Virus record (IMG/VR): IMGVR_UViG_3300032046_000121
Span: 1-33,657 of that record
DNA: 33,657 nt
Reading direction: 5' to 3' (one strand)
Origin: a virus
The position numbers and the translations under genes were made by a program. This document shows, in pieces, positions 6,881 through 31,452 of the stretch; the stretch's first letter is position 1, and every line of letters begins with the position of its first letter. The notes below the pieces were generated by a model, which ran no database searches, was not told the DNA's origin, and worked only from the letters and a program-made list of their open reading frames with translations.

Positions 6881-8671
6881 CTACAGAGTCGTGTTCGTTC
6901 CCAGCACTGAAACCCCGAGAATCCAGCCGGTCAGTCCGGGCAGTACATGCCCCGGCTCGACGATTCGCACGAGGTGCAGGTCAATCGGGTCTGCCCACGT
7001 GGCAACGTCCCAGACGATCCGTCTCTCCTCGTTGGTCAGGATAACCGGGGAGATGATGTTGTAGCTATTCTTCATGCGTGCCGTCGACGGTGCCAGCGTC
7101 GTGGTGTACCCTAGCCTGCCCTTGACTGGATCGCCGAGGACCCAGGCCGTGCGGGTGTTGTAGGGCACAACCTCGAAGTGAATATCGAGGAGAGTGAAGA
7201 GCATGTCCTCGATATTCTTATCACTTCCCAGGTTCCGGTAGAACCCGCGCAAGGCAGCAAGAAGCTTGCGCTTTTGATTGTTCGTCTCGAGCGGGAACGT
7301 GAAGGGGTTTCCCTCGTGGATGAGGAGCCAGTCCAGCCAGTGGTCCGGGCAGCTGTAGGGGTCGTAGGCCTGCTGGATCTGGTCTGCAGCGTACCAGAGC
7401 TGATCCTGCGCGTCCTGCAGCACCACGGCCATCTTGCGCAGCTGGCAGCTGGCCTCGAGGTCTTCCTTCATGTCCGTGCCGGGGATGATCTGCGTGCTCC
7501 ACATCCTGAAGCGCTTAGCCGGGCGCCCGAACGTCGGGGAGGTGAAGTCCAGCTCGGAGTCGGCGGCGTTCTCCCAGACGTCCTGCGGGCCCACGGCGTG
7601 CAGCGTGTAGAGCCGGCCGAAGGAGATGCCGTCGTGCCAGGTCAGGTAGACGTACTCGTCGGGGTTCTCACCGTCCAGGAGCTCGCTGGCTGGCACGGAT
7701 GCAGCCGCGGTCGGCATCGGGCAGAATGCGACCTGCGTGCGCTCCGCGTCCAGCGGATAGGTGCCTGCGCCTTCTTCAGCAAGGCGCGCAGCGAGCTTGT
7801 AGGAGGAGATCGTGGCAGAGATCGTTCGGCGCTGAACGATCGTGCCGGCGGAATCCGTGTCGTCCCCGCTGTCCATGGCAAGTGCGCCGGGCGTCACGGT
7901 GAGGACTCCCGCGGTGATGTCCACCCCGGAGATCTCCCGTGTGCCATTGTTCGTCGGGATGATGGACCCGTAGAGCGCAACGAACTGGCCAACCCAGTCC
8001 TCACTGAGTCGAGCTCCGGCGATCTTCACGTGCGTTGCATCAAGAATCTCAGCTCCGCCTGGCCAGTACTTCACGAACTGAGCGCCACCCACATCGTCCG
8101 TCTGCAGCACGGGCTCGTTGAACTTCACTCGGCAGCGGAACGGTGTGAACCAGAGGATCTCGGCGAGCTCAGGTTTTGTTAGGTCCTCGACGACGAAGCT
8201 GTAGCTGAAGGGATAGACCGTGCCGGACCCGACAAGCTGGGCAGTGATCTCGACCGTGATCGTGTCGAGCGACGTGAATGCCTCGGGCGCAATGATGGAG
8301 AAGACCAGCTCGTCGTTGACTGCAGAGCCTGCAGATTGCCGAGGGGTCGCCGAGCCTGAGAATCCATTCTTGAATCCGCCATCGGCCTGGTCGTAGGCTA
8401 GAACCCGGGTGGAGTTGATAGCAGACGAGATGTAGATCTGGGTGACTGCGTCTATGGCCGCAGCCCCGAGCGAGGCTAGCTGGAAGTCCACTGTCCTGGT
8501 GCAGAGGACATCGTCCTCCTGGTCTGCGGGAACGCAGTTGATGAGGACCAAGTCCTCAGCAGGCGTCTCGTACTCCAGCTGGTCGATATAGGCTGCCGCG
8601 AGTTTGGTATCAACAGGGCCCAAGGCTACCCCCGTGGTTGTGAAGCTGAATGACGTGCTGGCAGTTGGCAT
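6881..8671 (-). CDS. P2 gpI-like baseplate/tail protein, long N-terminal extension
   Basis: A 596-aa protein. Residues ~400-590 match the pattern of phage tail protein I (P2 gpI), a baseplate component that joins the wedge to the fibres: AYDPYSCPDHWLDWLL, then a basic helix NNQKRKLLAALRGFYRN, then LGSDKNIEDMLFTLLDI. P2 gpI is under 200 residues, so about 400 residues here are extra. They are beta-rich, with Ig-like stretches at ~120-185 (ELVFSIIAPEAFTSLDTITV, FNEPVLQTDD) and a module at ~208-262 (HVKIAGARLSEDWVGQFVAL, then NNGTREISGV) that resembles ones in two other tail genes here. The ATG overlaps the stop of the upstream gene (TGATG). The family call rests on pattern recognition, not on a search. 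Confidence 0.7.
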   Translation of the reverse strand: MPTASTSFSFTTTGVALGPVDTKLAAAYIDQLEYETPAEDLVLINCVPADQEDDVLCTRTVDFQLASLGAAAIDAVTQIYISSAINSTRVLAYDQADGGFKNGFSGSATPRQSAGSAVNDELVFSIIAPEAFTSLDTITVEITAQLVGSGTVYPFSYSFVVEDLTKPELAEILWFTPFRCRVKFNEPVLQTDDVGGAQFVKYWPGGAEILDATHVKIAGARLSEDWVGQFVALYGSIIPTNNGTREISGVDITAGVLTVTPGALAMDSGDDTDSAGTIVQRRTISATISSYKLAARLAEEGAGTYPLDAERTQVAFCPMPTAAASVPASELLDGENPDEYVYLTWHDGISFGRLYTLHAVGPQDVWENAADSELDFTSPTFGRPAKRFRMWSTQIIPGTDMKEDLEASCQLRKMAVVLQDAQDQLWYAADQIQQAYDPYSCPDHWLDWLLIHEGNPFTFPLETNNQKRKLLAALRGFYRNLGSDKNIEDMLFTLLDIHFEVVPYNTRTAWVLGDPVKGRLGYTTTLAPSTARMKNSYNIISPVILTNEERRIVWDVATWADPIDLHLVRIVEPGHVLPGLTGWILGVSVLGTNTTL

Positions 8672-11600
8672 CAGTTAGCCTCGGCTTGCACGTCTACAAC
8701 GTACTCGGTGCTGGGGCTAAACGGAGTGGGGCCAACAACGTCGAAATGGTAGCCTCCGCTGATCGCCGATATCGCTACAGTGTGCCCGTTCTGCTCTGGA
8801 GATTCCTGTGTTCCGTCGTATGCTACAATGCCGCTGATCGAGACTATCGCTGTGCTTAGGTCAACCGTGTAGGACCCGCCATGCACGTCGAACGACACAT
8901 GCGAGGTCAAGGGGACGTTGGTAGACTCGTCTGGGGGAGAGATGTTGTCAATGTGGGGCGCTACCGTAGGGGCCATTGCGTACGTGGCAACTGCATCTAT
9001 CAGATTACTATCTGGCCAAATAGCAGATGCCCAACTACTGCCATCTTCAGACTCGTGAAAGTCTATAGCCTCTGAATTGAATGCCAAGCATGTATATCCG
9101 CTAGGCAGGCCCCCAAGATTCTTGCACACCTGATTGTGCGGGGCCCCCTCTGATGAATCGCAAGTTAGACGTTCTTCCCAAGCGATACTGTCCCAGTGAT
9201 ACAGCACAGCGGAGTCGTCTGGATAGGAGTACATCCAGATGTCATTGTCTGAATTTCCGAAGATTCCACCCCAGCTGGCTCCCCAGTTGAGTATCGGGTC
9301 CCCGACTATTTCCCAGCTGGAGCCATTCCACCGAGTAACGATCGTTATCCATTCATCCGTGTAGGTCTCACACACGACGTAGACGGAGTCTACGCTCGCT
9401 CCCCAGACATCGGAAAAGTAGCAGGTGTCCGTTGCACCTGTAGCTACGATGATTGCTGTTGAGTGGTCGAACCAGCTTTCACCATTCCAGTGTAGAACTC
9501 TGTCCCGTCCTGTAACCCAGATATCGGCACTACTACTAGCCCACACACCCCAGATCTGAGCTTGGTTGACCGGAAACTGTGAGGTGAGATCAGCGAACAC
9601 TGACCAAGACGCACCATCGTAGTGTAGAAGCTCGGCCTCTGTCTTTCCCGGCTTGTATTCAGCAGCAAATACATCGTTGGCAGCAATAGCGTGGCCTCGA
9701 TAGACTGTGCTACCGTCTGCCACCAAGCAGTAGTCCGTGAACTCTTTGAGGCTCCACGTTTCAGTACCCGGAGCATAGTGCCAGAAGCCTGCATTGGAGA
9801 ACGCTAGGTCGAACGCGTAAATATGAGGTGCACGATAACCGTCAAAACGCCAATTGTAACCAGAAGTATAACCAGAACCATACCAGAGAAAATCGTCATG
9901 TACACCAAGGCACATAGTATGGTTGGTGAAAGCCATGCTTGTCCAGGTCGTGCCTCCCTCCCATCGATAAACACCTTTGGCACCATCATAACCAGAAGCG
10001 TATAGCTGACCATTCCACGCAATAAGATCACTAACAATCGTATGGTACCCTACCAACCCACAGTCATTCCATGTGGTCCCGCCAGCATATACGTAGACAT
10101 GGCCGTCCATGCCGCCAGCATATAGATTACCATTAAACTCATATAGACAGTATATCCAGGGAAATTCAGCCGTGCCAGGCACAGGCTGGCCACAGTCCGT
10201 CCAACTGGTGCCACCATCGTACCGGCAAACCTTATTGTAGCCAGGGGTGTCATTGAAGGCCCCATACAGAAACCCTCCACAGACACATAAGTCAGCTATC
10301 TCATCGCCAAACGGATGTCCACAGTTTGTCCAACTGGTGCCGCCATCGTACCGGCAAACCTCAGCATCCACCACATGGGTGTAATGCTGCGTCCCCGCAT
10401 ACAAGTCACCGTCCCACGGACACAGGCATGTAATGTGGTCTAGAGATGCAGGATGGCCACAGTGCGTCCAGCTGGTGCCTCCAGCCCATAGGTAGACATG
10501 ACCCTCATACACACCACCACTACCGTTGAGGGCACCTACATAAAGGCCCCCCTCAAACTCACACACAGCGTATACACCAGAGGAGTCTACCTCGGGCTTA
10601 CCCAAATCTGTCCAGATAGGATTGTCTGGGCCACCGCCAGCGTATCGTCGAACAAGACCGCCTGACGCAGAATTACTAGCACAAAAGAACAAATCACCAT
10701 CAAACGAGATCTGCTCGGTTACCCAGTTAACAGAGTAATCTCCTCTGCCATAGTTAGGCCAACCGTTAGAGCTGTGGTCGACCAACATGCAGGCCATACG
10801 CTCGCCTGAAAGAGCGACGTACTGCTCAGCACGATGGACAGTTTCTCCAGTGTAGTTGATGACCACAGGACCTGCAGACCATGAACCATCCTTCCTAAAT
10901 GTCTGAATGCGAAGCCCATGGTACGAGCCCTCGTACCCCGTGTAGGACTTCGATGCAACAGTGATTAGACCCGTTGAGATCTTAATGTCAGCGGTATCGA
11001 ATTGGTAGCTGCCTGTAATGTCCAGTGTGGCTACTTCGCTCCAAGACCCGGAATACTCAAAGATGCGAAGCTTGCGTGCGGTGTGTACTGATGCTTGTCC
11101 TTCAAGCACGGCCAGTACCGTGTCCAGAATGGCTGCTCCGTAGTTCACGTAGCCTGGAAGTGGAGTGACTGTGTACTCCAAGGACCAGTCGCTCTGCGGG
11201 CGCACCTCAACACTGGAGTCAGCAAGAACTGTGATGATCCTTGTGCCGTCATAACCTTTGGTATATGGATACCAGCTATCCGTCTTTGTTGTGGTAAGGG
11301 AGAATGCACCTCCACCTACTCTGTCATATACCCGTAACCCAGGGTTGACAGATCCCGCAGTGGTTGTTACTAGTAATCGATCACCTACCAAAAACAACCG
11401 TCCACGAGAGCAGATTGTATCTTCAATCTCTTGAGGTGGTAGCGTCGCTCCATAGTCAGTGTAGACATAGACCTTTCCAGTATCCCCAGGAAAACCTGCA
11501 TCCGTCACCAAAGAAACCGCAATGGTCCCATTGTCATGGGCCATCGAGTCGCCAAAATGCTGGTGCGGAGAGGTGCCGCGTGTCCGGTATACCTCACCAC

Positions 11601-12825
11601 TGGACCAACACACCGCATACAGATAGATGCCATCTGTACCCATGCCATCTATCCAGCTACTAGCCAATTGACCAAGGCTCGTCCAAGTGGCGTCACCGTC
11701 GTACAAACCTACATACCCTTGGTCTCCGGTGCCAACGGCGATCTTTCCCTGATACGGCAGCATCCAGCCTATATACGTCTGACCAGTATCGAAACTTGAC
11801 CACGTAGTGGCTGGCCACCCTGCATACTTCCATACGCTCCCATCTCCGCCTGCATAGAGAGATCCATTGAAGGAAAGCAGCGGGAAGACATTATCTGTAA
11901 TCGGTACGCTTAGTGCTCCAGCCTTCGACCAGCTTGTTCCTCCGTTCCAATGCCGCACATTGCCAACACCCGTGTCCGTCTGCGTGCCGCTGGCGTATAG
12001 GGCTCCATCATGGGACGCGAGACTGATTAGCTCGGTCAGCCCAGTAGACCCAATCGAGGTCCACGCGGTGCCTCCATCCCAGCGATACACAGTGCCTGTG
12101 TAGCAGCCTATATATAGGTTCCCGTCGTGTACTGCCATACCATAGGGGAATGATCCGGCGTCAGGGACACCGCAGTCAACAGTCGACACACCATCATAAT
12201 AGTAGACGTGGCAGCCGTCCTTCCAGCCTGTAGCGATGAAGAGTTTGCTATCAAACTGGATCAGACCGCAGACAACTGAGCTACTGCCGAGTGCTCCGGC
12301 GGACACATCGGCCCAGACAATTCCTCCGTCCCAGCGATATAGACGTGGATGCCCACCAGCTTCATTTGCGTCGCAAGATCCGACGTATATATGCCCATTG
12401 TAGTATTCAACACCGTATCCATCATCGCTTCCTGCAACAGTGCGGCCCAGATTGGTCCACGCACTTGCACTGCTGGGAGGAACAACTGTCCTGATCAAGG
12501 ACCAAGTGTTCTCCCCGGATAGACCGTACACTTGAAATCTACCGGATAGCAGGCTGTAGCAAGGATCAGCGACGACTATGTGCGTAGCATCCATCGCAAT
12601 GGATGCAATCGGGCTTGACCCAGTGAGTACAGGAGCAAATAGCCCAAGTTCCGTGGTGGTTTCAGCATACAAAGCACCGCCGCCATCGTAGATGATGATA
12701 TCGCCCTGCGTTGTTGTCAGTAGCAGGCCACCGCTGCCCACAAGTTCCGGCTGGGGTGAAAACTCTTGCCAGGCCCCCGCGTCTCGCAAGTAAAGCTTCT
12801 TTCCATCGGTGGATAGCGCAAGCAT
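8671..12825 (-). CDS. Giant beta-propeller-like tail adhesin (1384 aa)
   Basis: The largest protein here. The short motif [YH]-[RWH]-[WY]-[DNAE]-G-G-T-x-W recurs about 15 times, for example at residues 163-171, 247-255, 291-299, 778-786, 824-832, 867-875, 911-919, 953-961, 1067-1074, 1111-1118, 1164-1171 and 1208-1216. It usually follows a strand such as GNLYAGGMDGHVY. This spacing (40-60 residues) fits propeller blades: one set at ~140-415, a second at ~705-1000, and a third at ~1010-1220 whose units read IWGVWASSSADIWVTG before LHWNGESW. Residues ~1288-1384 look like a bacterial Ig-like domain (SPPDESTNVPLTSHVSFDV). Probable role: sugar or surface binding by the tail. GC is clearly lower than in flanking genes. 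It starts directly after the upstream stop with one base between. Confidence 0.75.
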   Translation of the reverse strand: MLALSTDGKKLYLRDAGAWQEFSPQPELVGSGGLLLTTTQGDIIIYDGGGALYAETTTELGLFAPVLTGSSPIASIAMDATHIVVADPCYSLLSGRFQVYGLSGENTWSLIRTVVPPSSASAWTNLGRTVAGSDDGYGVEYYNGHIYVGSCDANEAGGHPRLYRWDGGIVWADVSAGALGSSSVVCGLIQFDSKLFIATGWKDGCHVYYYDGVSTVDCGVPDAGSFPYGMAVHDGNLYIGCYTGTVYRWDGGTAWTSIGSTGLTELISLASHDGALYASGTQTDTGVGNVRHWNGGTSWSKAGALSVPITDNVFPLLSFNGSLYAGGDGSVWKYAGWPATTWSSFDTGQTYIGWMLPYQGKIAVGTGDQGYVGLYDGDATWTSLGQLASSWIDGMGTDGIYLYAVCWSSGEVYRTRGTSPHQHFGDSMAHDNGTIAVSLVTDAGFPGDTGKVYVYTDYGATLPPQEIEDTICSRGRLFLVGDRLLVTTTAGSVNPGLRVYDRVGGGAFSLTTTKTDSWYPYTKGYDGTRIITVLADSSVEVRPQSDWSLEYTVTPLPGYVNYGAAILDTVLAVLEGQASVHTARKLRIFEYSGSWSEVATLDITGSYQFDTADIKISTGLITVASKSYTGYEGSYHGLRIQTFRKDGSWSAGPVVINYTGETVHRAEQYVALSGERMACMLVDHSSNGWPNYGRGDYSVNWVTEQISFDGDLFFCASNSASGGLVRRYAGGGPDNPIWTDLGKPEVDSSGVYAVCEFEGGLYVGALNGSGGVYEGHVYLWAGGTSWTHCGHPASLDHITCLCPWDGDLYAGTQHYTHVVDAEVCRYDGGTSWTNCGHPFGDEIADLCVCGGFLYGAFNDTPGYNKVCRYDGGTSWTDCGQPVPGTAEFPWIYCLYEFNGNLYAGGMDGHVYVYAGGTTWNDCGLVGYHTIVSDLIAWNGQLYASGYDGAKGVYRWEGGTTWTSMAFTNHTMCLGVHDDFLWYGSGYTSGYNWRFDGYRAPHIYAFDLAFSNAGFWHYAPGTETWSLKEFTDYCLVADGSTVYRGHAIAANDVFAAEYKPGKTEAELLHYDGASWSVFADLTSQFPVNQAQIWGVWASSSADIWVTGRDRVLHWNGESWFDHSTAIIVATGATDTCYFSDVWGASVDSVYVVCETYTDEWITIVTRWNGSSWEIVGDPILNWGASWGGIFGNSDNDIWMYSYPDDSAVLYHWDSIAWEERLTCDSSEGAPHNQVCKNLGGLPSGYTCLAFNSEAIDFHESEDGSSWASAIWPDSNLIDAVATYAMAPTVAPHIDNISPPDESTNVPLTSHVSFDVHGGSYTVDLSTAIVSISGIVAYDGTQESPEQNGHTVAISAISGGYHFDVVGPTPFSPSTEYVVDVQAEAN

Positions 12826-12826
12826 T

Positions 12827-13405
12827 CTATGCCTGCTGGACGGTAATAACCACCGTCAGGTCAGTAAGGACGCCATCTATATCATCTACGTCCATAGTAA
12901 CTAGGTCGCCTGTAGAGAATGACCCGGCTTCTATAGTTGTAGATACGGCCTTGCCATCAGCATCGTCGTATGGAATGTATGGCCTGTTAGACTGCGTCGT
13001 GAAGATGGTCGTGCCCCTCACATTGACATCGATGTGCGTACCTCCGCCAACGCCCGTGGTAGATTTGCGATGGGCCATGACACGAGTGACTGCACCATCG
13101 AACGGCGCCTCCCAGACGCCTCCGAGCTCGACACCAGCGCCGAACTCCACGTTGCTGACGCTCTCGATGAAGAAGTGGCAAGTCTGCGGCTTGCCGTCGA
13201 TCGCTGCAGCTACAGCCTGGAGCTCCACCTGGAGGGGCTTCTCATCCCCCCAGGACTTGCCCGAGTCCCACTGCGTGCCGTCCTGGTCAGGGAACGGAGG
13301 GTACTGAACGATGCTACCAGGCGTACCGAGGCAGATCTGCAAGATGCCGCCTGCGGAGTCGGCTACGGCCCTGATGGCATCTCGGATGGTCTCGTAGGTA
13401 GACAT
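12827..13405 (-). CDS. Distal tail protein, unknown
   Basis: A 192-aa protein. A longer in-frame reading exists upstream, but that extension is arginine-rich antisense-like sequence lying inside the preceding gene. The ATG at 13405, overlapping the previous TGA by one base (TGATG), gives a sensible start MSTYETIRDAIRAVADSAGG. It has an N-terminal amphipathic helix, then beta strands (QTCHFFIESVSNVEFG, GAVTRVMAHR, THIDVNVRGTTIFTT, ending in DVDDIDGVLTDLTVVITV). The C-terminal ~100 residues resemble a small beta-sandwich. Position among tail-tip genes suggests a baseplate or fibre accessory protein. No named family is recognised. Confidence 0.7.
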   Translation of the reverse strand: MSTYETIRDAIRAVADSAGGILQICLGTPGSIVQYPPFPDQDGTQWDSGKSWGDEKPLQVELQAVAAAIDGKPQTCHFFIESVSNVEFGAGVELGGVWEAPFDGAVTRVMAHRKSTTGVGGGTHIDVNVRGTTIFTTQSNRPYIPYDDADGKAVSTTIEAGSFSTGDLVTMDVDDIDGVLTDLTVVITVQQA

Positions 13406-14214
13406 CAGGCTGCTGCCTCCAGCTTGAGCTCGAACTTCACCTTGACCAGGGCGCCTGGCGTGACCTTGGAGATGTTGAGCGCGAGGAACCCGCGATACCA
13501 GGTGTGCTTCGGCTGCTCGACGATCTTCAGCTGCTCGACGTAGCCAGAGCCGGAATCGAGGAAGGCCCGCGTCGTCCACTGCAGCCCGAGGATCTTGACA
13601 GTGACCGCGGCAGGGTCGGGCACAGTAGTCTGTGCCATGTTCACGTTGTAGTAGAGCGCTCGATCTCCCACGAGGACGCTGCCCTGATTGGACGGTATGC
13701 CATCGAGAGGGAATGCTCCATCATTGTTCGGGTCAGTGGAGCCAGAGATGCTGAGCAAGGCGCCCTTGTCGCTGGCGCTGAATGGGCTAGCTGGCGTCGA
13801 GATGACTAGCCCCTGGCAGCCATCTGGGCTGGGCGTCGTGACGACAAGACCTGAAGTCCTGACGAACCTGACCTGGCCGGCGCTGGAGACGATGGTCCTG
13901 GCCTGCGGGAGGTCTCCAGGGATCCTGATGTGCCAGTTGAACCTGACCAGCTTGTAGTCAGCAGTGTTGAACTCCTGCTCCACGGTCACAGCATCGTCTA
14001 CATTGAACCGATGCGGCTGGAACGGGTCTTCGTCGGCGCCCAGGCAGAAGACGTGCCCGAAGGCAGGAGTTTCACCATAGGCCTGATAGGCATCGTAGAC
14101 GTACCGATGGCTATAGTAGTAATACCCTTCCTGGTAAGTGCCTGCAGGGGTAGAGTATTGAGGGAGGATTCTCCCAGCTACAGTGCCTGGAAACTTCCAG
14201 AGCGGACTGCCCAC
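13405..14214 (-). CDS. Beta-rich distal tail protein, unknown
   Basis: A 269-aa protein with a GTG start at 14214, supported by GGAGG five bases upstream. The N-terminal 60 residues are tyrosine-rich (EGYYYYSHRYVYDAYQAYG). Residues ~134-186 hold a beta module with the line GALLSISGSTDPNNDGAFPL, similar to modules in the gpI-like and 829-aa proteins. The C-terminal end (LALNISKVTPGALVKVKFEL) is a pair of beta strands. It lies between two other beta-rich proteins with one-base or very short spacing, so they are probably made together. Function is not recognised; a tail-tip structural role is inferred. Confidence 0.7.
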   Translation of the reverse strand: MGSPLWKFPGTVAGRILPQYSTPAGTYQEGYYYYSHRYVYDAYQAYGETPAFGHVFCLGADEDPFQPHRFNVDDAVTVEQEFNTADYKLVRFNWHIRIPGDLPQARTIVSSAGQVRFVRTSGLVVTTPSPDGCQGLVISTPASPFSASDKGALLSISGSTDPNNDGAFPLDGIPSNQGSVLVGDRALYYNVNMAQTTVPDPAAVTVKILGLQWTTRAFLDSGSGYVEQLKIVEQPKHTWYRGFLALNISKVTPGALVKVKFELKLEAAA

Positions 14215-21118: not shown

Positions 21119-21802
21119 CTATCTCCCAAACCTCAGCGTGGTTCCGGGGACCATGGCGTCAACTACTCCGCGGTCTTCTGGGAATCGGCTATCACTCATC
21201 AGCGGATTTGCGCCGGGCGGGTCCCAATTGCCTCCACGCATCCCCATTACCTCATGGGCGTATTGCGTCTTGAACTGCACTCGACGCTCGATGAGATCGA
21301 GGTGGACAGTAGCCTCTCGTGGCTGCATGTCTGCGTCCCACCTTGTGTACCGAATCTTCCAGTGCTTGATGACGGCTTGGCAACGCAACGTGTTCGGCCA
21401 GTCGATGATGAGGATAGCAGCCGCGTGGCCTTTTGCTGTGGGGAACGCAAACGACGTGAGCCATTCAGCGGCCCAGCGCACGGTCATCTTGTCCTTCAGG
21501 ACATTGCCGTACCTGAAGATCGTGAACCCGAACTGGGATAGATAGAGCTCTATGGGAAACGTAGGAGCGCTCGTGCCCCCAAACATCAGGACAGACCCAC
21601 TCCCGCCAATGGGCTTGAGCTCCCCGATGTCCACGTCCCCAGAGATCTCCAGCTCCGGTGGGTTGTAGAGCACTTCCATGAAGTTCTTCATTGGATCGTT
21701 GATGTCGTGGATCGTCACGTGGGCATTGGCCCTGACCAGCCCGCGGAAGTCGCCCTCCTTGCCCATCGTGGTCTGTCTTCCGCCGAACGCTGACTTTGAC
21801 AT
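21119..21802 (-). CDS. Tail tube initiator / CIS tube-like protein
   Basis: A 227-aa protein. ATG at 21802 overlaps the tape measure stop (TGATG); AGGA is seven bases upstream. The line FMEVLYNPPELEISGDVDIG at residues ~40-62 fits the f.v.yNP.e..... pattern of contractile injection system tube-type proteins, and FPIELYLSQFG (residues ~81-92) is the following strand. The second half has KHWKIRYTRWDADMQPREAT, matching strand pairs that build a tube-like barrel. Its position between tape measure and LysM protein supports a role as the first tube layer at the hub. The C-terminal ~35 residues (GGNWDPPGANPLMSDSRFPE) are probably flexible. Confidence 0.7.
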   Translation of the reverse strand: MSKSAFGGRQTTMGKEGDFRGLVRANAHVTIHDINDPMKNFMEVLYNPPELEISGDVDIGELKPIGGSGSVLMFGGTSAPTFPIELYLSQFGFTIFRYGNVLKDKMTVRWAAEWLTSFAFPTAKGHAAAILIIDWPNTLRCQAVIKHWKIRYTRWDADMQPREATVHLDLIERRVQFKTQYAHEVMGMRGGNWDPPGANPLMSDSRFPEDRGVVDAMVPGTTLRFGR

Positions 21803-24426
21803 CAACGCATCCTATGGCTGCCATGCACCCCTGTAGACCTGTCTAGCGGGTGCGGCACGCTGTCGTCTCCCACAATGACTACTTTGATCTTCCCCTCTTT
21901 GAATTGCTTGAGCAGCGCGGCATTCGTTGCCGCCAGGTCCTTGAAGGCAGTCTCGGTCATTATGCGATAGTCAACAGCTGCGCCGATTGCGCCTTCTGCC
22001 CTACGCGCAGGGCCACCTTTCGCTTCAGACCTAGCTCCAAGACCAAAGGCTCCAGGCTTCGACTCTAGAGCTCCAGGCTCGAACAGCAGGCCCGCGCCGG
22101 GCAAGCCACGAACATCCTCAGGGGGAAGATATCCCTTCTCTCCAAGCATCGTCATTGCCTTGACTGCTGTGGAGTAGGGCACGCCTTTGGTCATGGACTC
22201 GGAGAGGATCTTGTGCATCCCGCGGAAGCGAGCCACGAGGTTCCCGCCAAATGCTCCTGGCTGAGTCATCTCGATATGCTGCGCTACGGCTCCGGCGGCA
22301 GTGAGATAGCCAAGAAGCTCTTGCCCTTCGCTCGTTGACAGCTCCTTGCCAGATTGCCCCTTCGACCAGATCTTCTGGGCCTCGTTGAGCCCTAGCATGC
22401 TTCCTCGCACCGCCATCGTTTCCTGCGGGCCTAGGCCTTTCAGTCCAGTGAACTTCGATGCCAGCTCACTAGCAATGTTCCACTGCACACGCTGCGGCTT
22501 GTAGTTCATGATGGCATCTAGCTTCCTGATGACATTCTCGAATGCTTGCGTGCCGAACTGGAGGGCCTCAAGCTTCTTTTTGTTCTCCTCGTCGGTCATG
22601 GCCTTCCTGATCTTCGATTCTGCTGAGAGTGCCTCCTCCATCTTTTTCTTCTTGTAGGCCTCTACGGCATCTATGTAGAGCAGGCTGCGCATCAGCGAAT
22701 TGAACGTGCCAGTGCGCGTGTTCTTCTCCAGCGTGGTATACCAGGACTGGAGTGCCTCATTTGTCTGCAGGAAGTTTGCTAGCTCGTACAGCCCGTATAG
22801 ACCTGCGGCAATTAGCGCTGGTATGCCACCGATTGCCGAAGCCGCGCTGGCCGCTGCAGCTTTGACAGTCGTCCACGCTGCGGCCGTCTTGGTTACTGCA
22901 GTAATGTTGGTCAGACCAGCACCATAGCTAGCGTAGGATCCATAGCCCCCAATCGCACCGCCTGGTCCAACCATTCTGGGAAACGCGCTAAACAGTACGC
23001 TACTGGGCATGCCAGGCTGGCCAAGTCCCATTTTTTGCAGCCCAGACGTAACTGCCAATCCAGCAAATGCTCCGCGGAGCCGCGTGATTGCCCCGCCGAA
23101 TGCAGAGGCTTGGATTGATCCCTGCATCAGGTTGTGATTCACGACGGACATGATGCGGGATGCGCCCTGTAGCGCAGCACTGAAGGCCCAGATGCCGCCT
23201 TTGACCATGAGAACAATAGCGCCGATTTGCGCCAGGAAGGATACGCCGGGCAGACTGATGAAAGCCGTGAAGACGTTGAGGAGCTTCTCGGCGAGGCCGA
23301 CGATCAAGCTGAATGCTGGACCTAGCTTGCTGCCAATCTCCAGGGCAAGGACTTGCCCAGCCTCGGTCATGCGCTGGAACCCGGCGCCTATGGTCTTCTG
23401 CCAGGCTTCTGCCAGACGCTGGAGGAAGCCAGTATCCCCCATGGCTGCATTGAGCTCCTTGAAGACGTCTCTATTCTGCCTCCAGGCGTCGGTGACGACC
23501 ATCATGATGGATTCGAAGGTCTGCTTGGCTCGTCCCGTGAAGGCTTTGCCCCCGCCTTTGACCATCGTCTTCGTGAGGAAGTCGCTGAACGTGCCGCCCA
23601 TCTTGTCCCAGGCGGGTGCTGCCTCCATGAATATCTGCGGTAGGCTCTTGCCGACGATGTCGATGTTCATCGCCCTGAATGCTTCTTCCGCCGCGGGGCG
23701 AGTGAGGTCCGAGACCATACGGGCATAGAGCGTAGAAGCCCGCTGCGCCGACGGCATGACGCGCTTGAGGATAGCAAAGGTGCCAAACGCCTCTTCCGGG
23801 CTATAGCCAGCTGTGCGAGTGGCAACACCGACCTTGCCCATCACTCCCGGCTTGAATTCCTCGATGCCGAACCCGGCCCAGTTGGCAGCTGCAGCGATCT
23901 TGTTCAAGGAGGCTGGGATCCTATCTGCAGCGAGGTTGAATGCCCTCGAGAGCTCGCCCGCGAAGGCAGCAGCCTGCTTGATGTCCATCTTGCCGAAGGA
24001 GGCCATCGCGAACTGAGCAGTGGCACCAAGAGACTTCACGGCGCCCTCGGCGCTGCCCGTCTTGCGACGGAGCTCGAGCATGGCCTCGGCGACCTCGAGG
24101 GGGCCAAACGAGGTCTCCTTGGCGACCTTCAGAACCTCATTCCGGTAGTTGGTCATCTCGCTGGCAGACGCGTTGGTCAAGGCCTTCAGGCCAGCGAAGG
24201 CCTCCTCGAGCTTCATCGTGGGCGTCATGATGGACATGAAGACGTCCTTGATGCGCGACGCCGCCATGATGCCCGTGAAGGCCCCAGCGAGGTTGGCGAA
24301 GTTCCCCCGCATCTTGCCAGCAGCCTTGCTGACAGAGTTCAGCCCGCCCGTGACTCGATTCGTGTCCCGCTCGAACTGCGGGATCCCGAGGTAGCCCGTG
24401 AGGAATCTACAGTCGAAGATCGCCAT
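21802..24426 (-). CDS. Tail tape measure protein (TP901 type)
   Basis: An 874-aa protein that sets tail length and is ejected with the DNA. Residues ~60-300 are the TP901-type core: MKLEEAFAGLKALTNASASE, then LKVAKETSFGPLEVAEAMLE and KVGVATRTAGYSPEEAFGTF. Two hydrophobic regions lie at ~370-425 (LIVGLAEKLLNVFTAFI, IGAIVLMVKGGIWAF) and ~517-552 (AAAASAASAIGGIPALIAAG), as expected of a protein that crosses the host membrane. The C-terminal region is Gly/Pro-rich with no visible lytic domain. At roughly 0.15 nm per residue the tail would be near 130 nm, a rule-of-thumb estimate. TGAGG is four bases before the ATG. It follows the chaperone pair, as usual. Confidence 0.9.
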   Translation of the reverse strand: MAIFDCRFLTGYLGIPQFERDTNRVTGGLNSVSKAAGKMRGNFANLAGAFTGIMAASRIKDVFMSIMTPTMKLEEAFAGLKALTNASASEMTNYRNEVLKVAKETSFGPLEVAEAMLELRRKTGSAEGAVKSLGATAQFAMASFGKMDIKQAAAFAGELSRAFNLAADRIPASLNKIAAAANWAGFGIEEFKPGVMGKVGVATRTAGYSPEEAFGTFAILKRVMPSAQRASTLYARMVSDLTRPAAEEAFRAMNIDIVGKSLPQIFMEAAPAWDKMGGTFSDFLTKTMVKGGGKAFTGRAKQTFESIMMVVTDAWRQNRDVFKELNAAMGDTGFLQRLAEAWQKTIGAGFQRMTEAGQVLALEIGSKLGPAFSLIVGLAEKLLNVFTAFISLPGVSFLAQIGAIVLMVKGGIWAFSAALQGASRIMSVVNHNLMQGSIQASAFGGAITRLRGAFAGLAVTSGLQKMGLGQPGMPSSVLFSAFPRMVGPGGAIGGYGSYASYGAGLTNITAVTKTAAAWTTVKAAAASAASAIGGIPALIAAGLYGLYELANFLQTNEALQSWYTTLEKNTRTGTFNSLMRSLLYIDAVEAYKKKKMEEALSAESKIRKAMTDEENKKKLEALQFGTQAFENVIRKLDAIMNYKPQRVQWNIASELASKFTGLKGLGPQETMAVRGSMLGLNEAQKIWSKGQSGKELSTSEGQELLGYLTAAGAVAQHIEMTQPGAFGGNLVARFRGMHKILSESMTKGVPYSTAVKAMTMLGEKGYLPPEDVRGLPGAGLLFEPGALESKPGAFGLGARSEAKGGPARRAEGAIGAAVDYRIMTETAFKDLAATNAALLKQFKEGKIKVVIVGDDSVPHPLDRSTGVHGSHRMR

Positions 24427-24445: not shown

Positions 24446-25494
24446 CTAGGTGTCTCTGGAGAGGAGCTCGTCCTCCGCCATCTCCAGATGTAGGCCTTGC
24501 TGTGCTCCAGGAAGTGGCTTGGACGCAGCTTCCATTATCTCCTCCCGCTCGGCGTCCAGCAACAGCTGCAGGCCTTCCAGCTGCCACCTGGGCAGGCGCT
24601 TGATCTCATCCAGCGTCAGCCCCAGGTTGCAGAGCTTGGGGTAGCCAATGGTCGCCTTGTAGAGGGCGATCACGCAGGAGCTGCGGGTGAGTCTGCCCCC
24701 GAAGATGGCTTCGACCGCCTGGAGCTGCTCAGCAGCATCTCCAGCCCATAGAAGCGGTGATCCAAAGGGAGTAGAGTCTGCTGATCCCTCCCCGAGCAGA
24801 ACACGTTGTCGCACGTCCAGTCCGCGTAGAGGTCCGGCCCGCCGCCTGCCTGCTCGAGCGTCTCCTTGACCGTTCGGCCCAGGGCCCAAGGCTGCCCGGG
24901 CAGGCCCCAGAACTCCAGGATTTCCCTGAGGCTCGTCATGGGCTTGCTGCTGTCGAGGAACCGGATCGACTGGATGGACAGGCAGTGCTGGATGCGCAGG
25001 AGCAGCTTCTGGTCCTTGCGACCGCGCTTGGCGATCTCCGGCAGGTGCTGGCCCCTCAGGATGCGCAAGTCGACCTCCGCGGGCCCCTTCGCGGTCATGA
25101 CGGGGCGCACGATGGGCTGCTTGCTGGCCAGGTGCTGCTTGCCCTCCTCGGTCGCCGAGATGATCTCCACGTCCTTCATGGCGATCTCCAGCTTCTTCTT
25201 GCGCCCGCAGGAGTCGCAGGAGCGATCGAAGCGGAAGATGCCATCGTCGGTGATGGCGCGGATGAGCACGTTGGCCGCCTGGATGTCGTCGATCGACACC
25301 TCGCTCCAGCTCGGCTTGGCGTTCGCCCCGAAGCCGTAGGGTCCAGGCTCGAGGCAACGAATGGTCCCGAGCTCGGCCATGCGCAGCGTCAAGGCCTGCG
25401 CGTCGTCCTTCTGGTCGAGTAGGGCTTCCTGGTCAGCGAGGCACCAGCCTCGGATGTCGAGGACCATCCCCGATGGGAGCAGCGCTTCAGACAT
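24446..25494 (-). CDS. Tail assembly chaperone, frameshifted long form (349 aa)
   Basis: Predicted product of a -1 ribosomal frameshift. Translation begins at 25494, reads 244 codons through CCT TTG at 24768-24763, slips back one base and continues GGA TCA CCG for 105 more residues to a stop at 24446. The added part (LLWAGDAAEQLQAVEAIFGG ... LTLDEIKRLPRWQLEGLQLL, ending LEMAEDELLSRDT) has normal protein character and ends 20 nt before the tape measure gene. Long and short forms from one start are typical of tail assembly chaperones placed between tube and tape measure genes (lambda G/GT, Mu gp41/42), which guide tape measure folding and tube polymerisation. Frameshift efficiency cannot be read from sequence. 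Confidence 0.75.
24670..25494 (-). CDS. Tail assembly chaperone, short form (274 aa)
   Basis: The zero-frame product. ATG at 25494, with AAGGAG seven bases upstream (counted from its last G). Residues 70-150 carry a beta domain with a cysteine pair, C93DSC96 (RFDRSCDSCGRKKKLEIAM); another pair occurs at C228DNVFC233 shortly before the slippery codons, so a metal site is possible. The helical part RGRKDQKLLLRIQHCLSIQS and SLREILEFWG precedes the chaperone end. After the slip site the zero frame adds 30 residues of serine/proline-rich sequence (SSSRRSKPSSGADSPAAPA). Position between tube and tape measure genes sets the assignment; the N-terminal domain by itself is not a family I can name with certainty. 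Confidence 0.75.
   Translation of the reverse strand: MSEALLPSGMVLDIRGWCLADQEALLDQKDDAQALTLRMAELGTIRCLEPGPYGFGANAKPSWSEVSIDDIQAANVLIRAITDDGIFRFDRSCDSCGRKKKLEIAMKDVEIISATEEGKQHLASKQPIVRPVMTAKGPAEVDLRILRGQHLPEIAKRGRKDQKLLLRIQHCLSIQSIRFLDSSKPMTSLREILEFWGLPGQPWALGRTVKETLEQAGGGPDLYADWTCDNVFCSGRDQQTLLPLDHRFYGLEMLLSSSRRSKPSSGADSPAAPA
24763..24769 (-). other. -1 frameshift slippery heptamer CCCTTTG
   Basis: On the minus strand the zero-frame codons read CTC CCT TTG GAT; the heptamer C CCT TTG fits X XXY YYZ exactly, allowing CCT/TTG tRNAs to re-pair as CCC/TTT. The alternative frame is the -1 frame and stays open for 105 codons. About 30 nt downstream, GGAG..GCTGC TGA GCAGC..TCC could form a hairpin that slows the ribosome (around 24724-24745). 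The position inside a tail chaperone gene is the classic one. Confidence 0.75.
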
Positions 25495-25567: not shown

Positions 25568-26053
25568 CTACTGCGTCTCGCGGTCGAAGAACCAGAGAGC
25601 CATCTCGAGGCTCTCGATCTGAATGTCGTCGGACATGTTGTCCCAGTCCGAGGGAGACCACTTCGCCGGCCCGCAGGAGTACATCGGCCACTTGATGCGT
25701 GCCTTCTGCGTGCGGTCGTTCTGCCAGACAACCAGGTCCCGCAGCAGGTCCAGCGTCAGGCGGCCCTTGCCCTCCGGCATGTGAGCCAGCATGTCGATGC
25801 ACTCCTTGCACCAGTCGTAGAAGTGCTCGTCCTCGGACACGCCACGAGCCAGAGTGACGTTCCCGAAGGTGACCCGGCCAGGCTCCTTGATCGGCGCGAT
25901 GGCCCCACCCTCGGCGTACTCCGTCCACGCGATCGTGCACTCCAGGCCAGATGCCTTCTGGAACTTGGAGAGGTTCCCGAACCCGCCCGACATGTCGTTG
26001 ACGGTGAAGAGGAACTTGGAGAGCAGCTCTCGGCTTCTTGCCTTCGTCGGCAT
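25568..26053 (-). CDS. Tail tube protein (T4 gp19-like)
   Basis: A 161-aa protein, the usual length for contractile-tail tube subunits. Family marks are FTVNDMSGGFGNLSKFQKAS with GLECTIAWTEYAEGG (residues 16-50) and NVTLARGVSEDEHFYDWCKE (65-84), matching the v.l.RGv..d.dfy.W pattern, then a final strand pair around IQIESLEMALWFF (145-156). The tube lies inside the sheath and conducts DNA. AGGAG is nine bases before the ATG. It follows the sheath gene by 12 nt, which is the standard order. Two cysteines near 82-86 are not typical but do not disturb the pattern. Confidence 0.93.
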   Translation of the reverse strand: MPTKARSRELLSKFLFTVNDMSGGFGNLSKFQKASGLECTIAWTEYAEGGAIAPIKEPGRVTFGNVTLARGVSEDEHFYDWCKECIDMLAHMPEGKGRLTLDLLRDLVVWQNDRTQKARIKWPMYSCGPAKWSPSDWDNMSDDIQIESLEMALWFFDRETQ

Positions 26054-26065
26054 GGGATTTCTCTC

Positions 26066-28387
26066 CTACTGGCCCGAGGTGGCCGCCAGGTCCTTCTGGA
26101 TGCGGCTCCTGGTCCCCTGGCTGTCTCGGGTGAAGAGGATCTTCACGAACCGCGAGGCGCGTGCGGTCATGATGCCCTCGAGCACGTTGAACTCCTCGTT
26201 GTCGCGTGCCACGGCGTTGTTGATGCCCTCGCCAGGGACATCCGCGTTGACGTAGAAGGCGTCGTTGGTGTCCTTGGTCTCGAAGACCTCGTTGGCCGTC
26301 CACATCGAGAGGTCCTTGGCCAGCGTGCGCTGGACGCGTTCTCGCGCGACCTCGGTGTTGCCCTGCGTCCGCTGCTCCTCGATGTAGGACTCGTGCGTCC
26401 GGCGCAGGTGGGCCACTCCACGGATCTCACCGACGGAGATGAAGTTGCCCGAGCGATCGCCTGCCATGACGTCGTTGATCCAGACGCCGTAGCGCCCATC
26501 GACGTTGCGCAGGCCAGCGACGATCGGGTTGATCCCATTGTCCGTCACGTAGTCCTGCACGTTCTCGTCGAGGACCGTCTCGGTCTCGAGCCCGGTGGCC
26601 TCGTTCAGGTAGCCATAGGTCTGGTTGCCCGGCTGGCGCCACATCTGCTGCTTGACGTCCTCCACCGTGTTGCGCGCCATGCGGCCGGCGATGAGCCCCG
26701 AGGGCGGAACCACGATGTTGTCCTCGAGCCCGTAGAGCGTCTTGTCCGGGTTGGCGATCTTGACCCGCGGCCAATACATGGCCGTGCGCGCCTCCGATAC
26801 ATCCAAGCTCTGCACGTGGGTCACGATGGCGTCGTCATCGCTGCCAGCTGGGGGGTCCGGAACGAAGACGATCTTGCCCATCTTCGTCTCGCCGCAATAC
26901 GTGGTGGCAGCGTTCTGCACCGCCGTTGCCGTCGAGTCCGGGATGATCAGCAGATCACCCTCGTTGGTCAGGTTGAAGCCGTAGAGTCCCGTCCGGAGCG
27001 CAGGCGACCCGATGTAGTCGGTGGTGGTCAGGCCGGTCAACCCGTTGTCCCCACCCGTGAGGTAGGTCGTGGAGACGTTCACCGGCCGGCGCTGCAGCGT
27101 GCTTCCCGCGGCCAGCTTGTCCTCGAGTCGAATGCACTTCGACCGGCTGGAGAGCGTGTTGACCACGGCGATGGCGTAGTTGGTGTCGTCGGCTGCGTCC
27201 ATGTTGAGGTTGCGATGTCGCTCCACAGGGCGAGTGTAGCCCGTCCGGTAGACCACGAGGTCAAACGACGAGGTCTCCCCGTTGGTCGCAGCCGTCACGC
27301 TGACGGAGTACTCGTTGCCGACCGTGCCGTAGTAGAGCGCGTCCACGTCGAGCGTCGCGACGACGCCGCCGTCTGTCCCAGTATGCGCCGCGGTGTCGAG
27401 GCCCATCTTGGTCTCGGCTGTCGACGTCGCATCGGCATGGATGCTGCCGGTGGACCCGGACGTGTTCGTCCGGATGGTGAGGTACCCGCTATCCGAGCTC
27501 ACGGTGATGAGCCCAGTCAGCTCGGCCTCGCCCTCGAGCCACGCCTTGACCTCGGCCAGGCTCACGGAGCTAGCGTCCGCGGCGTCTCCCGACCCAGTGA
27601 CCGTGGCCACGTTGAACTGAATGATCGAGTTGGCGTCAGTGCCGTAGGGCCCACCGCCGCTCTCGACGAGGTTGATGCTTGCGCCTGAGCCCTTCTGGTC
27701 CGTCGTCAGGGTAACTCGCTTGCCAGCGCCGGTCACTGTGGCCTGCACACCGAGGAGCTGCGCGTTCAGAATCGCGGCAACTTCCTCGGCAGTCGCCGCG
27801 GTGATGTCGTCGAAGTCCGCGCTGCGGAACGTGACCTGCTGCGTGTCGCCAGCGTTGATGGAGAAGTCCATCGTTGAATCGGGCACGATGTTGAAAGGCT
27901 CATCGAGCTGGTTCTGCTCCGTCGCTGCCACCGCAGTGAACGTCGCCGTGCCCTTATTCGCCGGGTCCTCACCATCGATATAGAGGATCAGCGTGTCGTT
28001 GTTCTCGAGGGCGAACGGTGCCAGGACAGTCCCAGTGATCATCGCGTACGACGGAGACACGTCGGACGTGCTCAACACGGCTGCGGCTTTGGCCCCCGTG
28101 GCCGGATCGCCGTTTCCATCCCAGTGGAAGATGCGGTTGAAGATGACCTTCCCGCCACGCCGCCCGCGGCCACGGAAGTACTGGTCGATCGCGATGCCAG
28201 CGTAGTAGCTGGCCATCATCCCGCCGAACTTGGTCTTGAAGTCATCCCACGTCGTACAGACCGTTGGGCCCAGCGGACCCCACGGCGCAACGCCGGGAAC
28301 CAGCAGAGTGTCAGACTCCAGGCTGGGAACGCCTCGCGCCGACGGCGGGACGTTCTCGAACTCGATCCTCGATCTCCCGCGACCCAT
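26066..28387 (-). CDS. Contractile tail sheath protein, with insertion domains
   Basis: A 773-aa protein, larger than common sheaths. The N-terminus has LVPGVAPWGPLGPTVCTTWD followed by DFKTKFGG (residues 29-56), the family motif with a G-x-x-x-x-G-P turn then a loop ending in FGG. The C-terminal half has LEDNIVVPPSGLIAGRMARN (554-573) and GINPIVAGLRNVDGRYGVWI (618-637), typical of P..g.vAG..aR and gIN.i motifs, and a terminal arm. Residues ~115-340 are an insertion containing two related modules, one with FRSADFDDITAATAEEVAAI (187-206), the other with ASSVSLAEVKAWLEGE. Strong AGGAGG eight bases before the ATG fits high expression. Confidence 0.93.
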   Translation of the reverse strand: MGRGRSRIEFENVPPSARGVPSLESDTLLVPGVAPWGPLGPTVCTTWDDFKTKFGGMMASYYAGIAIDQYFRGRGRRGGKVIFNRIFHWDGNGDPATGAKAAAVLSTSDVSPSYAMITGTVLAPFALENNDTLILYIDGEDPANKGTATFTAVAATEQNQLDEPFNIVPDSTMDFSINAGDTQQVTFRSADFDDITAATAEEVAAILNAQLLGVQATVTGAGKRVTLTTDQKGSGASINLVESGGGPYGTDANSIIQFNVATVTGSGDAADASSVSLAEVKAWLEGEAELTGLITVSSDSGYLTIRTNTSGSTGSIHADATSTAETKMGLDTAAHTGTDGGVVATLDVDALYYGTVGNEYSVSVTAATNGETSSFDLVVYRTGYTRPVERHRNLNMDAADDTNYAIAVVNTLSSRSKCIRLEDKLAAGSTLQRRPVNVSTTYLTGGDNGLTGLTTTDYIGSPALRTGLYGFNLTNEGDLLIIPDSTATAVQNAATTYCGETKMGKIVFVPDPPAGSDDDAIVTHVQSLDVSEARTAMYWPRVKIANPDKTLYGLEDNIVVPPSGLIAGRMARNTVEDVKQQMWRQPGNQTYGYLNEATGLETETVLDENVQDYVTDNGINPIVAGLRNVDGRYGVWINDVMAGDRSGNFISVGEIRGVAHLRRTHESYIEEQRTQGNTEVARERVQRTLAKDLSMWTANEVFETKDTNDAFYVNADVPGEGINNAVARDNEEFNVLEGIMTARASRFVKILFTRDSQGTRSRIQKDLAATSGQ

Positions 28388-29723: not shown

Positions 29724-29885
29724 GCTGAGATCATCGGGCTTTGACCGAACCTCCTGCAATAATTCTTGTTGACAGCCAAATGCCAACAGGCAGAGGATGA
29801 GTCTAGATCCGGGGGGAACCTACCGCTGGTGGGGAGGGGGAAGGAATGTTCTCTACTCCCCCTAGCCATGACAAGGAGAATGTCC
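29724..29885. other. Divergent intergenic region, 162 nt
   Basis: The longest stretch without a gene and the only divergent gap. It holds the candidate minus-strand promoter, an unused AGGAGG on the minus strand, a plus-strand TTGACA at 29769-29774 and, near the plus gene, GGGGAGGGGG ... CTCCCCC (29831-29863), which could fold into a leader hairpin. No RNA gene is recognised. Confidence 0.5.
29759..29786 (-). promoter_or_regulatory. Possible sigma70-like promoter, minus strand
   Basis: TTGGCA (29786-29781) and AATTAT (29764-29759) with a 16-bp spacer, in the gap between the divergent genes. It would drive the tail terminator-sheath-tube operon. Five of six and four of six consensus bases match, so the call is weak. 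A TTGACA on the plus strand at 29769-29774 lacks a good -10 box. Confidence 0.3.
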
Positions 29886-30566
29886 ATGCCGCATTGGGTT
29901 TCATGGGTCCTGAACCAGATGATCTGGTTCATCCCGGCGCTCTTGCTCCTCGGGACCGTGCTCAACCGCGTCTCCCTGCATTTCAGCGTCGGCTCCAAGG
30001 CTCGCTGGTTCCTTGGTGTCGTCACGGAGGCCTTCAGCGTCCTCACCTCCGTCGGCTGCCAGTGGAGCCCAGAGTGGTACGGCAAGCTGAAGTTCCCGTT
30101 CCAGAGCGTCCCGCCCGACACTGAGAAGCCCAAGGACGGAGGCTTCGTGAGCCTCGGTCTGATGCTGTTCCTCGCTGCGGCTCTGGTCCTGCTGCTCTCG
30201 GGGTGTGCTACGGCTGAGAAGGCCTTCAAGGGAACATCAGCCTCGACGACGTCGTTGCGGCAGGCGGCCACGGCCTGGTTCGACGCTGACTGCATGAAGA
30301 CTGCCAAGGCCTGTCCCAAGGGCAAGCCCGAGGACTGTGCGCCATGGGTGAAGTGCAGCAAGACCCGAGAGGCCGTCTACACGTCGACGAACTCGATCCA
30401 GCTGGGCTGCGCATCCGGGCTGCAGCTACTCACTGCCGGATTCGACGTGAAGGCCAAGCTGCTCCTCGTCGAAGTTGGTCTGGCCGTCGAGGAGCTCTAC
30501 CAGAAGCTGAAGGACCTGGGCGTCTTCTCCGCTGGCACCAAGGGCCTGCTGGAGGTGACGCCATGA
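29886..30566 (+). CDS. Membrane/lipoprotein of opposite-strand island
   Basis: A 226-aa protein on the plus strand. ATG at 29886 has AAGGAG seven bases upstream, better than earlier ATGs at 29868 and 29880. Residues 7-32 are hydrophobic (WVLNQMIWFIPALLLLGTVL), and 88-107 form a second hydrophobic segment ending in LLSGC, a lipobox with Cys107. After it comes a mostly hydrophilic domain with five more cysteines (136, 143, 151, 157, 175). An in-frame GTG at 30147 has GGAGG four bases before it; starting there would give a 139-aa lipoprotein with a normal signal peptide. One gene could thus give two proteins. A lysis or envelope role (holin or spanin type) is a guess from topology. Confidence 0.7.
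   Translation: MPHWVSWVLNQMIWFIPALLLLGTVLNRVSLHFSVGSKARWFLGVVTEAFSVLTSVGCQWSPEWYGKLKFPFQSVPPDTEKPKDGGFVSLGLMLFLAAALVLLLSGCATAEKAFKGTSASTTSLRQAATAWFDADCMKTAKACPKGKPEDCAPWVKCSKTREAVYTSTNSIQLGCASGLQLLTAGFDVKAKLLLVEVGLAVEELYQKLKDLGVFSAGTKGLLEVTP
30138..30149 (+). promoter_or_regulatory. Possible internal ribosome binding site and GTG start
   Basis: GGAGG (30138-30142), four bases, then GTG (30147-30149), in frame with the surrounding gene. Downstream translation VSLGLMLFLAAALVLLLSGC is a textbook lipoprotein signal. The chance of such a site arising in GC-rich DNA is not negligible. Confidence 0.4.
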
Positions 30567-30778
30567 CGTTCCAGCAAGTTCTCGATGCCATCAAGGGCGG
30601 CGCCGACATCGGCACCATTCTGCTCAAGCTCGCCGTCGGCATTGTCGAGGCCATCATGCACTCCAGCGGCAAGAGTACCGACGAGGTCCTCTCCGACATC
30701 CGCGTTGAGATCGCCGCGACCAACAAGGCTCGCGAGGACGCCGAGGCCGCGGAGCGGAAGGTCATCTCCGGAGGCTAG
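30563..30778 (+). CDS. Small helical protein of opposite-strand island
   Basis: A 71-aa protein. The ATG overlaps the preceding TGA (ATGA) and has GGAGG seven bases upstream, so it is coupled to the lipoprotein gene. Residues 15-33 (ADIGTILLKLAVGIVEAIMH) are moderately hydrophobic and could be an amphipathic or weak membrane helix. The rest is charged and likely coiled (DEVLSDIRVEIAATNKARED, AEAAERKVI). The stop overlaps by four bases the 3' end of the convergent tail-completion gene. Function unknown; a lysis accessory is one option. Confidence 0.65.
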   Translation: MTFQQVLDAIKGGADIGTILLKLAVGIVEAIMHSSGKSTDEVLSDIRVEIAATNKAREDAEAAERKVISGG

Positions 30779-31452
30779 GCAGCTCCGTAGGCCTGCGCCA
30801 TCCTCTCCAGTCGTTTCTTGACCTGCTCGTCGGCAACCTTGGGCAGGATTCGCCGGACGATGTCCTTGGCGACTGCAGACCAGACGGGCCGCTTTGGGGG
30901 CGTGTAGTAGTAGAACCCGCGGTCCTTGTCCTCCTCGGGGAGGTAGTTCCTGGCTGACTTCCGCGTTCCATACCCGCCACGTCCCTCGCGGATCATGATC
31001 TGGTAGACGATGGACCGTAGGGTGATCTTGACCATGGCCTCGCCCGGGGGGTTCTCGATGCCATGGGCGATCTGAGCGAGGTTCTTCCCCGTCGAGATGT
31101 GCACGGCGAGCGGGTCGATCTGCACCACGTAGCCCTTGCCCGGCTGTGGAGTCACGACGACGAACCTCGCGAAGCCCTGCAGGCCGACGTGGCTCTCTGG
31201 CATCGGCAGACGGTAGGGCCGGTTGCCTCGGCCCTTCTCCTTGCCTGCTCGAGCAGCCTTGTACCCGAAGCCGCTGCTCCGGCCGTAGCTGCGGTACTTG
31301 GCCTTGACGAGCGCCTGAATCTGACCCGTGGCAGACTCGGCTGCCTTGGACATGACACGCGCGAGGGCCCCGGCCTTCAGGTCGTTGAAGAAGGCGATGG
31401 CATTCCGGATGCCTTGAGCATACTCAGCTTTGCCTTGCTTCTGAGAGGCCAC
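30775..31452 (-). CDS. Probable tail completion / neck protein
   Basis: A 225-aa basic protein. GTG start at 31452 five bases after the previous stop; the upstream ribosome binding site is weak. The N-terminus is helical (AYAQGIRNAIAFFNDLKAG is approximate; helix at residues 10-55, ending in IQALVKAKYRSYGRS) and the middle has strands (ARFVVVTPQPGKGYVVQIDP, LAVHISTGKN). The C-terminus is a basic helix (WSAVAKDIVRRILPKVADEQ). Helix-then-strand layout and gene order (after connector and head closure, before terminator) suggest an HK97 gp10-like neck or tail completion protein. The family match is uncertain. Confidence 0.5.
   Translation of the reverse strand: MASQKQGKAEYAQGIRNAIAFFNDLKAGALARVMSKAAESATGQIQALVKAKYRSYGRSSGFGYKAARAGKEKGRGNRPYRLPMPESHVGLQGFARFVVVTPQPGKGYVVQIDPLAVHISTGKNLAQIAHGIENPPGEAMVKITLRSIVYQIMIREGRGGYGTRKSARNYLPEEDKDRGFYYYTPPKRPVWSAVAKDIVRRILPKVADEQVKKRLERMAQAYGAA

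Follow-up and report, generated by a model that had tools for sequence, protein, structure and literature searches.

Do the two long reading frames that overlap in the tail module of an uncultured virus encode two separate proteins, or do they form one gene that yields two products from a single start? The window that we analyzed is the whole stretch of 33,657 bases (61% G+C) in the record IMGVR_UViG_3300032046_000121. Its minus strand carries a module of sheath, tube, frameshift-candidate, tape measure and baseplate genes. In tblastn searches, the sheath gene (26066–28387, minus strand) matches plasmid-borne proteins annotated as sheath, and it also has a match to phrog_15814; its presence implies a contractile tail, so the virus is probably an uncultured contractile-tailed phage. 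The frames lie between a T4 gp19-like tail tube gene (25568–26053, minus strand; PF06841, E = 6.2e-20; phrog_4542) and the tail tape measure gene (21802–24426, minus strand; phrog_28, E = 5.2e-22; PF10145, E = 9.7e-16), as the initial annotation of this DNA had proposed.

That annotation described two long minus-strand frames in -1 relation, and both the coordinates and the frame relation proved exact. The zero frame (24670–25494, minus strand), which runs from ATG to TGA, encodes a 274-residue protein that is a probable short tail assembly chaperone; its codon usage is that of the zero frame as far as the slip region, and it contains two cysteine pairs, CxxC (CDSC) and C-x4-C (CDNVFC). Past the TTG at the candidate slip site, the zero frame continues for 30 more residues (DHRFYGLEMLLSSSRRSKPSSGADSPAAPA), and the -1 frame (24446–24763, minus strand; stop codon at 24448–24446) continues for 105 residues (GSPLLWAG...SRDT), lengths that match those first given. 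Its codon-usage score over these 105 codons is +27.9. Joining the two parts would produce a fusion of 349 residues, with LLPL-GSPLLWAG as the predicted junction (LLPLGSPLLWAG).

The site at which such a switch could occur is the heptamer C CCT TTG (24763–24769, minus strand), which has the canonical X XXY YYZ form and sits at offset 2 in the zero frame, exactly in the register claimed for it. No other X XXY YYZ heptamer stands in register anywhere in the 274 codons of the gene. In the remaining window genes that were checked, which comprise 9,419 codons, there are nine in-register X XXY YYZ heptamers with A or T as Y, and CCCTTTG is not found in register either in these or in the other genes checked of the relative described below. 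It is a seldom reported heptamer: the initial annotation had placed it outside the most used types, and the open-access papers searched gave no example of CCCTTTG or CCCUUUG as a phage slip site. One property counts against it, namely that UUG re-pairing on UUU would leave a third-position mismatch.

Whether the heptamer is kept in relatives was the comparison that had been suggested, and relatives were hard to find. No usable relative came from querying viral contigs, genome contigs and phages directly with the first frame, or viral contigs and phages with the sheath and tube. We therefore reached them by way of a hand-made motif for the sheath N terminus, which led to L003 and L005, and then of an alignment of the two sheaths, which led to L007–L009; wider motif scans returned merely more contigs of the same virus or unrelated contigs. 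The L003/L005 sheath is 49% identical to that of the window. L003 and L006 are smaller copies of L005, and all three break off within the sheath gene, which makes them unusable for the slip site. The only relative found that spans the gene is IMGVR_UViG_3300024259_000016 (L009). The contigs L007–L009 represent one virus and are identical in this region despite coming from three samples, which means that the layout they share does not stem from an assembly indel.

In this distant relative, the order is again sheath, tube, zero frame (12369–13448), -1 frame (to 13753) and tape measure. Its sheath is 41% identical to that of the window and its zero frame 23% identical (E = 1e-9), and the cysteine pairs of the two first frames align (CDSCGR with CQHCGR; WTC...C). 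The -1 parts show marginal similarity only (shuffle p 0.02–0.1; BLASTP E = 0.19). CCCTTTG occurs at 13343–13349, in register and at the same aligned Pro-Leu as in the window. Both CCT and TTG are minority codons in L009, and the chance of CCCTTTG given Pro-Leu is about 0.014 by L009 codon usage and 0.005 by that of the window. Three further in-register triplet pairs (TTTGGGC, GGGCCCG and CCCGGGG) follow directly after CCCTTTG in L009, so slippage there could be spread, with CCCTTTG as the shared heptamer.

In both viruses, then, the gene lies between tube and tape measure, the position expected of a tail assembly chaperone, and combines an overlapping downstream frame in -1 register with an in-phase slippery site. 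With the conserved heptamer and layout in L009 and this gene order, the frameshift originally proposed is supported, and we regard a -1 programmed frameshift in the tail assembly chaperone gene of a contractile-tailed phage, giving two products from one start, as the best explanation and a highly probable one.

Signals in the RNA around the heptamer are consistent with this reading to differing degrees. A stimulatory hairpin had been suggested about 30 nt downstream; a hairpin is indeed predicted (24708–24755, minus strand; -27.8 kcal/mol), and it starts 7 nt after the heptamer rather than 30, inside the 5–9 nt range of spacings usually studied (PMC5009743). It consists of an outer stem (GCUUC/GAAGC) at 7 nt and a strong inner stem (CUGGAG/CUCCAG) about 18 nt past the heptamer. 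The fold of the 63 nt after the heptamer has a z-score of -2.5 against shuffles and ranks in the lowest 1.4% of equal-length windows in the virus's own genes. In L009, the downstream fold falls in the lowest 1.4% of its own genes at 80 nt and only in the lowest 16% at 63 nt. Hairpin shapes differ between the two viruses, and fold z-scores for longer segments around the slip site are not unusual. Upstream, a GGAGG (24787–24791, minus strand) lies 17 nt before the window heptamer and an AGGAG lies 14 nt before that of L009; judging by sequence, these could be internal Shine-Dalgarno-like stimulators, putative and weak in the case of the window.

Codon usage across the overlap bears most directly on the main competing explanation, in which the second frame would be a gene in its own right with an independent start codon, translated by coupling or by reinitiation at the first stop, and the fusion would not arise. 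The window has a -1-frame GTG (24671–24673, minus strand) that overlaps the zero-frame TGA as GTGA (24673–24670), an arrangement that would suit such coupling. However, this GTG is the first -1 start after the slip, with no ATG, GTG or TTG in the -1 frame between the heptamer and it, and codon usage already follows the -1 frame 56 nt or more ahead of it. The zero frame is favored up to the slip region and the -1 frame from about 24729, the codon-usage change point. Over the 19 codons 24729–24673, the -1 frame is ahead by 11.9 log units, which none of 8,935 stretches inside genuine genes matches, a somewhat flattering comparison because the stretch was picked after the change point was known. 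The GTG also has no Shine-Dalgarno sequence at the usual distance, and we judge it an unlikely start; an upstream GTG at 24814 would require 15 codons that read as zero frame. L009 is more accommodating to a separate start: its overlap past the heptamer remains zero-frame-like throughout (10.4 versus -1.6), with the change point near the stop, and 20 nt past the TAG lies an ATG (13469–13471) that is preceded at 6 nt by GGAG. One of the findings named at the outset as speaking against frameshifting was a start and ribosome binding site belonging to the second frame; the window offers only the late GTG without a Shine-Dalgarno, and L009 offers a possible case. In the window, too, the first 11 codons past the heptamer are still zero-frame-like. 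Such codons are expected in both viruses if the short product is the main one, and they mean that codon usage alone does not fix the exact slip point. T4-like phages reportedly make their chaperones without frameshifting, as stated in the title of a paper by Vladimirov et al. 2022 (cited as reference 76 in PMC12846349), and this shows that a separate route is possible in principle. Yet it would leave the conserved heptamer unexplained, and we consider two independent genes unlikely. A compatible addition to the frameshift, equally unlikely in our estimation, is that the fusion is accompanied by a free second-domain protein from an internal start; the ATG with GGAG beside the conserved heptamer in L009 would fit this, whereas the window has no good start signal.

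Two further explanations would remove the need for a ribosomal slip altogether. The overlap could reflect chance, or an assembly or mutational indel that broke one gene into two frames or created a spurious -1 frame, and indeed the probability that the -1 frame stays open after the slip is about 0.08 in the window, where the open frame is by itself weak evidence, and 0.02 in L009. Against this stand the strongly coding-like score of the -1 frame and a distant relative, assembled from three samples, with the same layout and heptamer, so that we think this reading very improbable. Slippage by the polymerase during transcription would result in the same fusion, but the window site has no single-base run longer than 3 and the described sites are long A or T runs (PMC3711429), leaving this the most remote of the possibilities that we weighed.

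How the -1 frameshift would operate can be outlined by analogy with better-studied phages. Most ribosomes would read through 25494–24670 and release the 274-residue short protein. In a minority, the Pro and Leu tRNAs on C CCT TTG would shift by -1 onto CCC TTT, aided by the hairpin that begins 7 nt further on, and the ribosome would then read the -1 frame to 24446 and complete the 349-residue fusion. If the protein works as lambda gpG/gpGT does, the part shared by both products may attach to the tape measure protein, and the residues encoded in the -1 frame may recruit tube subunits. The reading frames, the heptamer, the gene order, their conservation in one relative, the codon-usage switch and the predicted hairpin are results of the analysis; that slippage takes place, its level and the chaperone function are inferred.

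The protein itself is an orphan. Searches of Pfam and PHROGs returned no family at E < 0.02 for either part in either virus, and PDB sequences gave no match to the protein parts. A search with PF12322 gave no match, and the controls in the same search were also without a match. AlphaFold models of both parts are of low confidence (pLDDT 31 and 50), and the low-confidence model of the -1 part has helical character. We also considered the first frame as a relative of T4 gp26/gp51, which profile comparison with gp26 or gp51 (PF12322, phrog_150) did not support (hhalign probability at most 1.5%). Low similarity is normal for this function (PMC5009743), which means that no named family can be assigned and that the functional reading is not thereby barred. 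The chaperone role is thus probable on the basis of gene order and the -1 layout, not of homology. More tentatively, and with considerable doubt, these proteins might form a new chaperone family for tail assembly whose large first domain has paired cysteines and possibly binds zinc. It would belong to an uncultured contractile lineage that retains CCCUUUG as its slip site, and in L009 the second domain might also be made on its own from an internal start.

Comparison with known systems places the mechanism as ordinary and the heptamer as seldom reported. Long-tailed phages widely share -1 frameshifts even where their sequences have little in common (PMC5009743); for lambda gpG/gpGT and this conservation, PMC5009743 and PMC2628397 refer to Xu, Hendrix and Duda 2004. 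The window gene resembles lambda gpG/gpGT in having one start and two predicted products, a -1 slip at an X XXY YYZ site near the end of the frame, and a place between the major tail protein and the tape measure; by the same analogy, the short product would be expected to be the main one. Unlike the lambda type, in which the heptamers end in AAG, the site here is CCCTTTG, and unlike lambda gpG, the first frame has cysteine pairs and no detectable sequence homology. The first frame is about twice the length of lambda gpG. With the T4-like chaperone pair gp26 and gp51 (family phrog_150), it shares a zinc-like CxxC motif (CPECGK in gp26, CPKCKK in gp51), although there is no significant profile match. 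Among contractile-tailed phages, a -1 frameshift has been proposed at the 3' end of the short chaperone gene in myoviruses of the Vandenendeviridae and Andersonviridae, conserved across genera (PMC12846349). The window gene is like theirs in tail type and in the proposed frameshift, and unlike theirs in its motif, which is CCCTTTG here and a conserved GTTTTT there.

With these results, the phages that seem to control the proportions of their tail assembly proteins through frameshifting would come to include a divergent, uncultured lineage, with a CCCTTTG site at which Pro CCU is followed by Leu UUG in the A site. They also offer a positional function for two protein parts that match no family, and such genes should consequently be annotated as one gene with two products.

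Several other features of these genomes were seen along the way. A far more distant contractile phage (IMGVR_UViG_3300034134_000014) also has overlapping frames between tube and tape measure (3500–4367); they stand in +1 (or -2) relation, the Mu-like direction, not -1. Compared with the L009 sheath, the window sheath (26066–28387) has an insertion some 225 residues long (roughly positions 100–340 of the protein), which L005 has as well. Near the baseplate genes, the minus strand at 8671–12825 encodes a 1384-residue protein with repeated YxGGTSWTxCG-like blades, suggestive of a beta-propeller; a PHROG search gave no match, and the protein is possibly a tail fibre or receptor-binding protein. 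Finally, a plus-strand coding signal at 29766–30821 interrupts a tail module that is otherwise on the minus strand, comprising a lipoprotein-like frame (29930–30560, with LLLSGCA) followed by a small overlapping frame (30530–30800, starting MTFQQVLDAIKGG). A Pfam search of this insert gave no convincing match; its arrangement could be that of a spanin-like or lysis insert.
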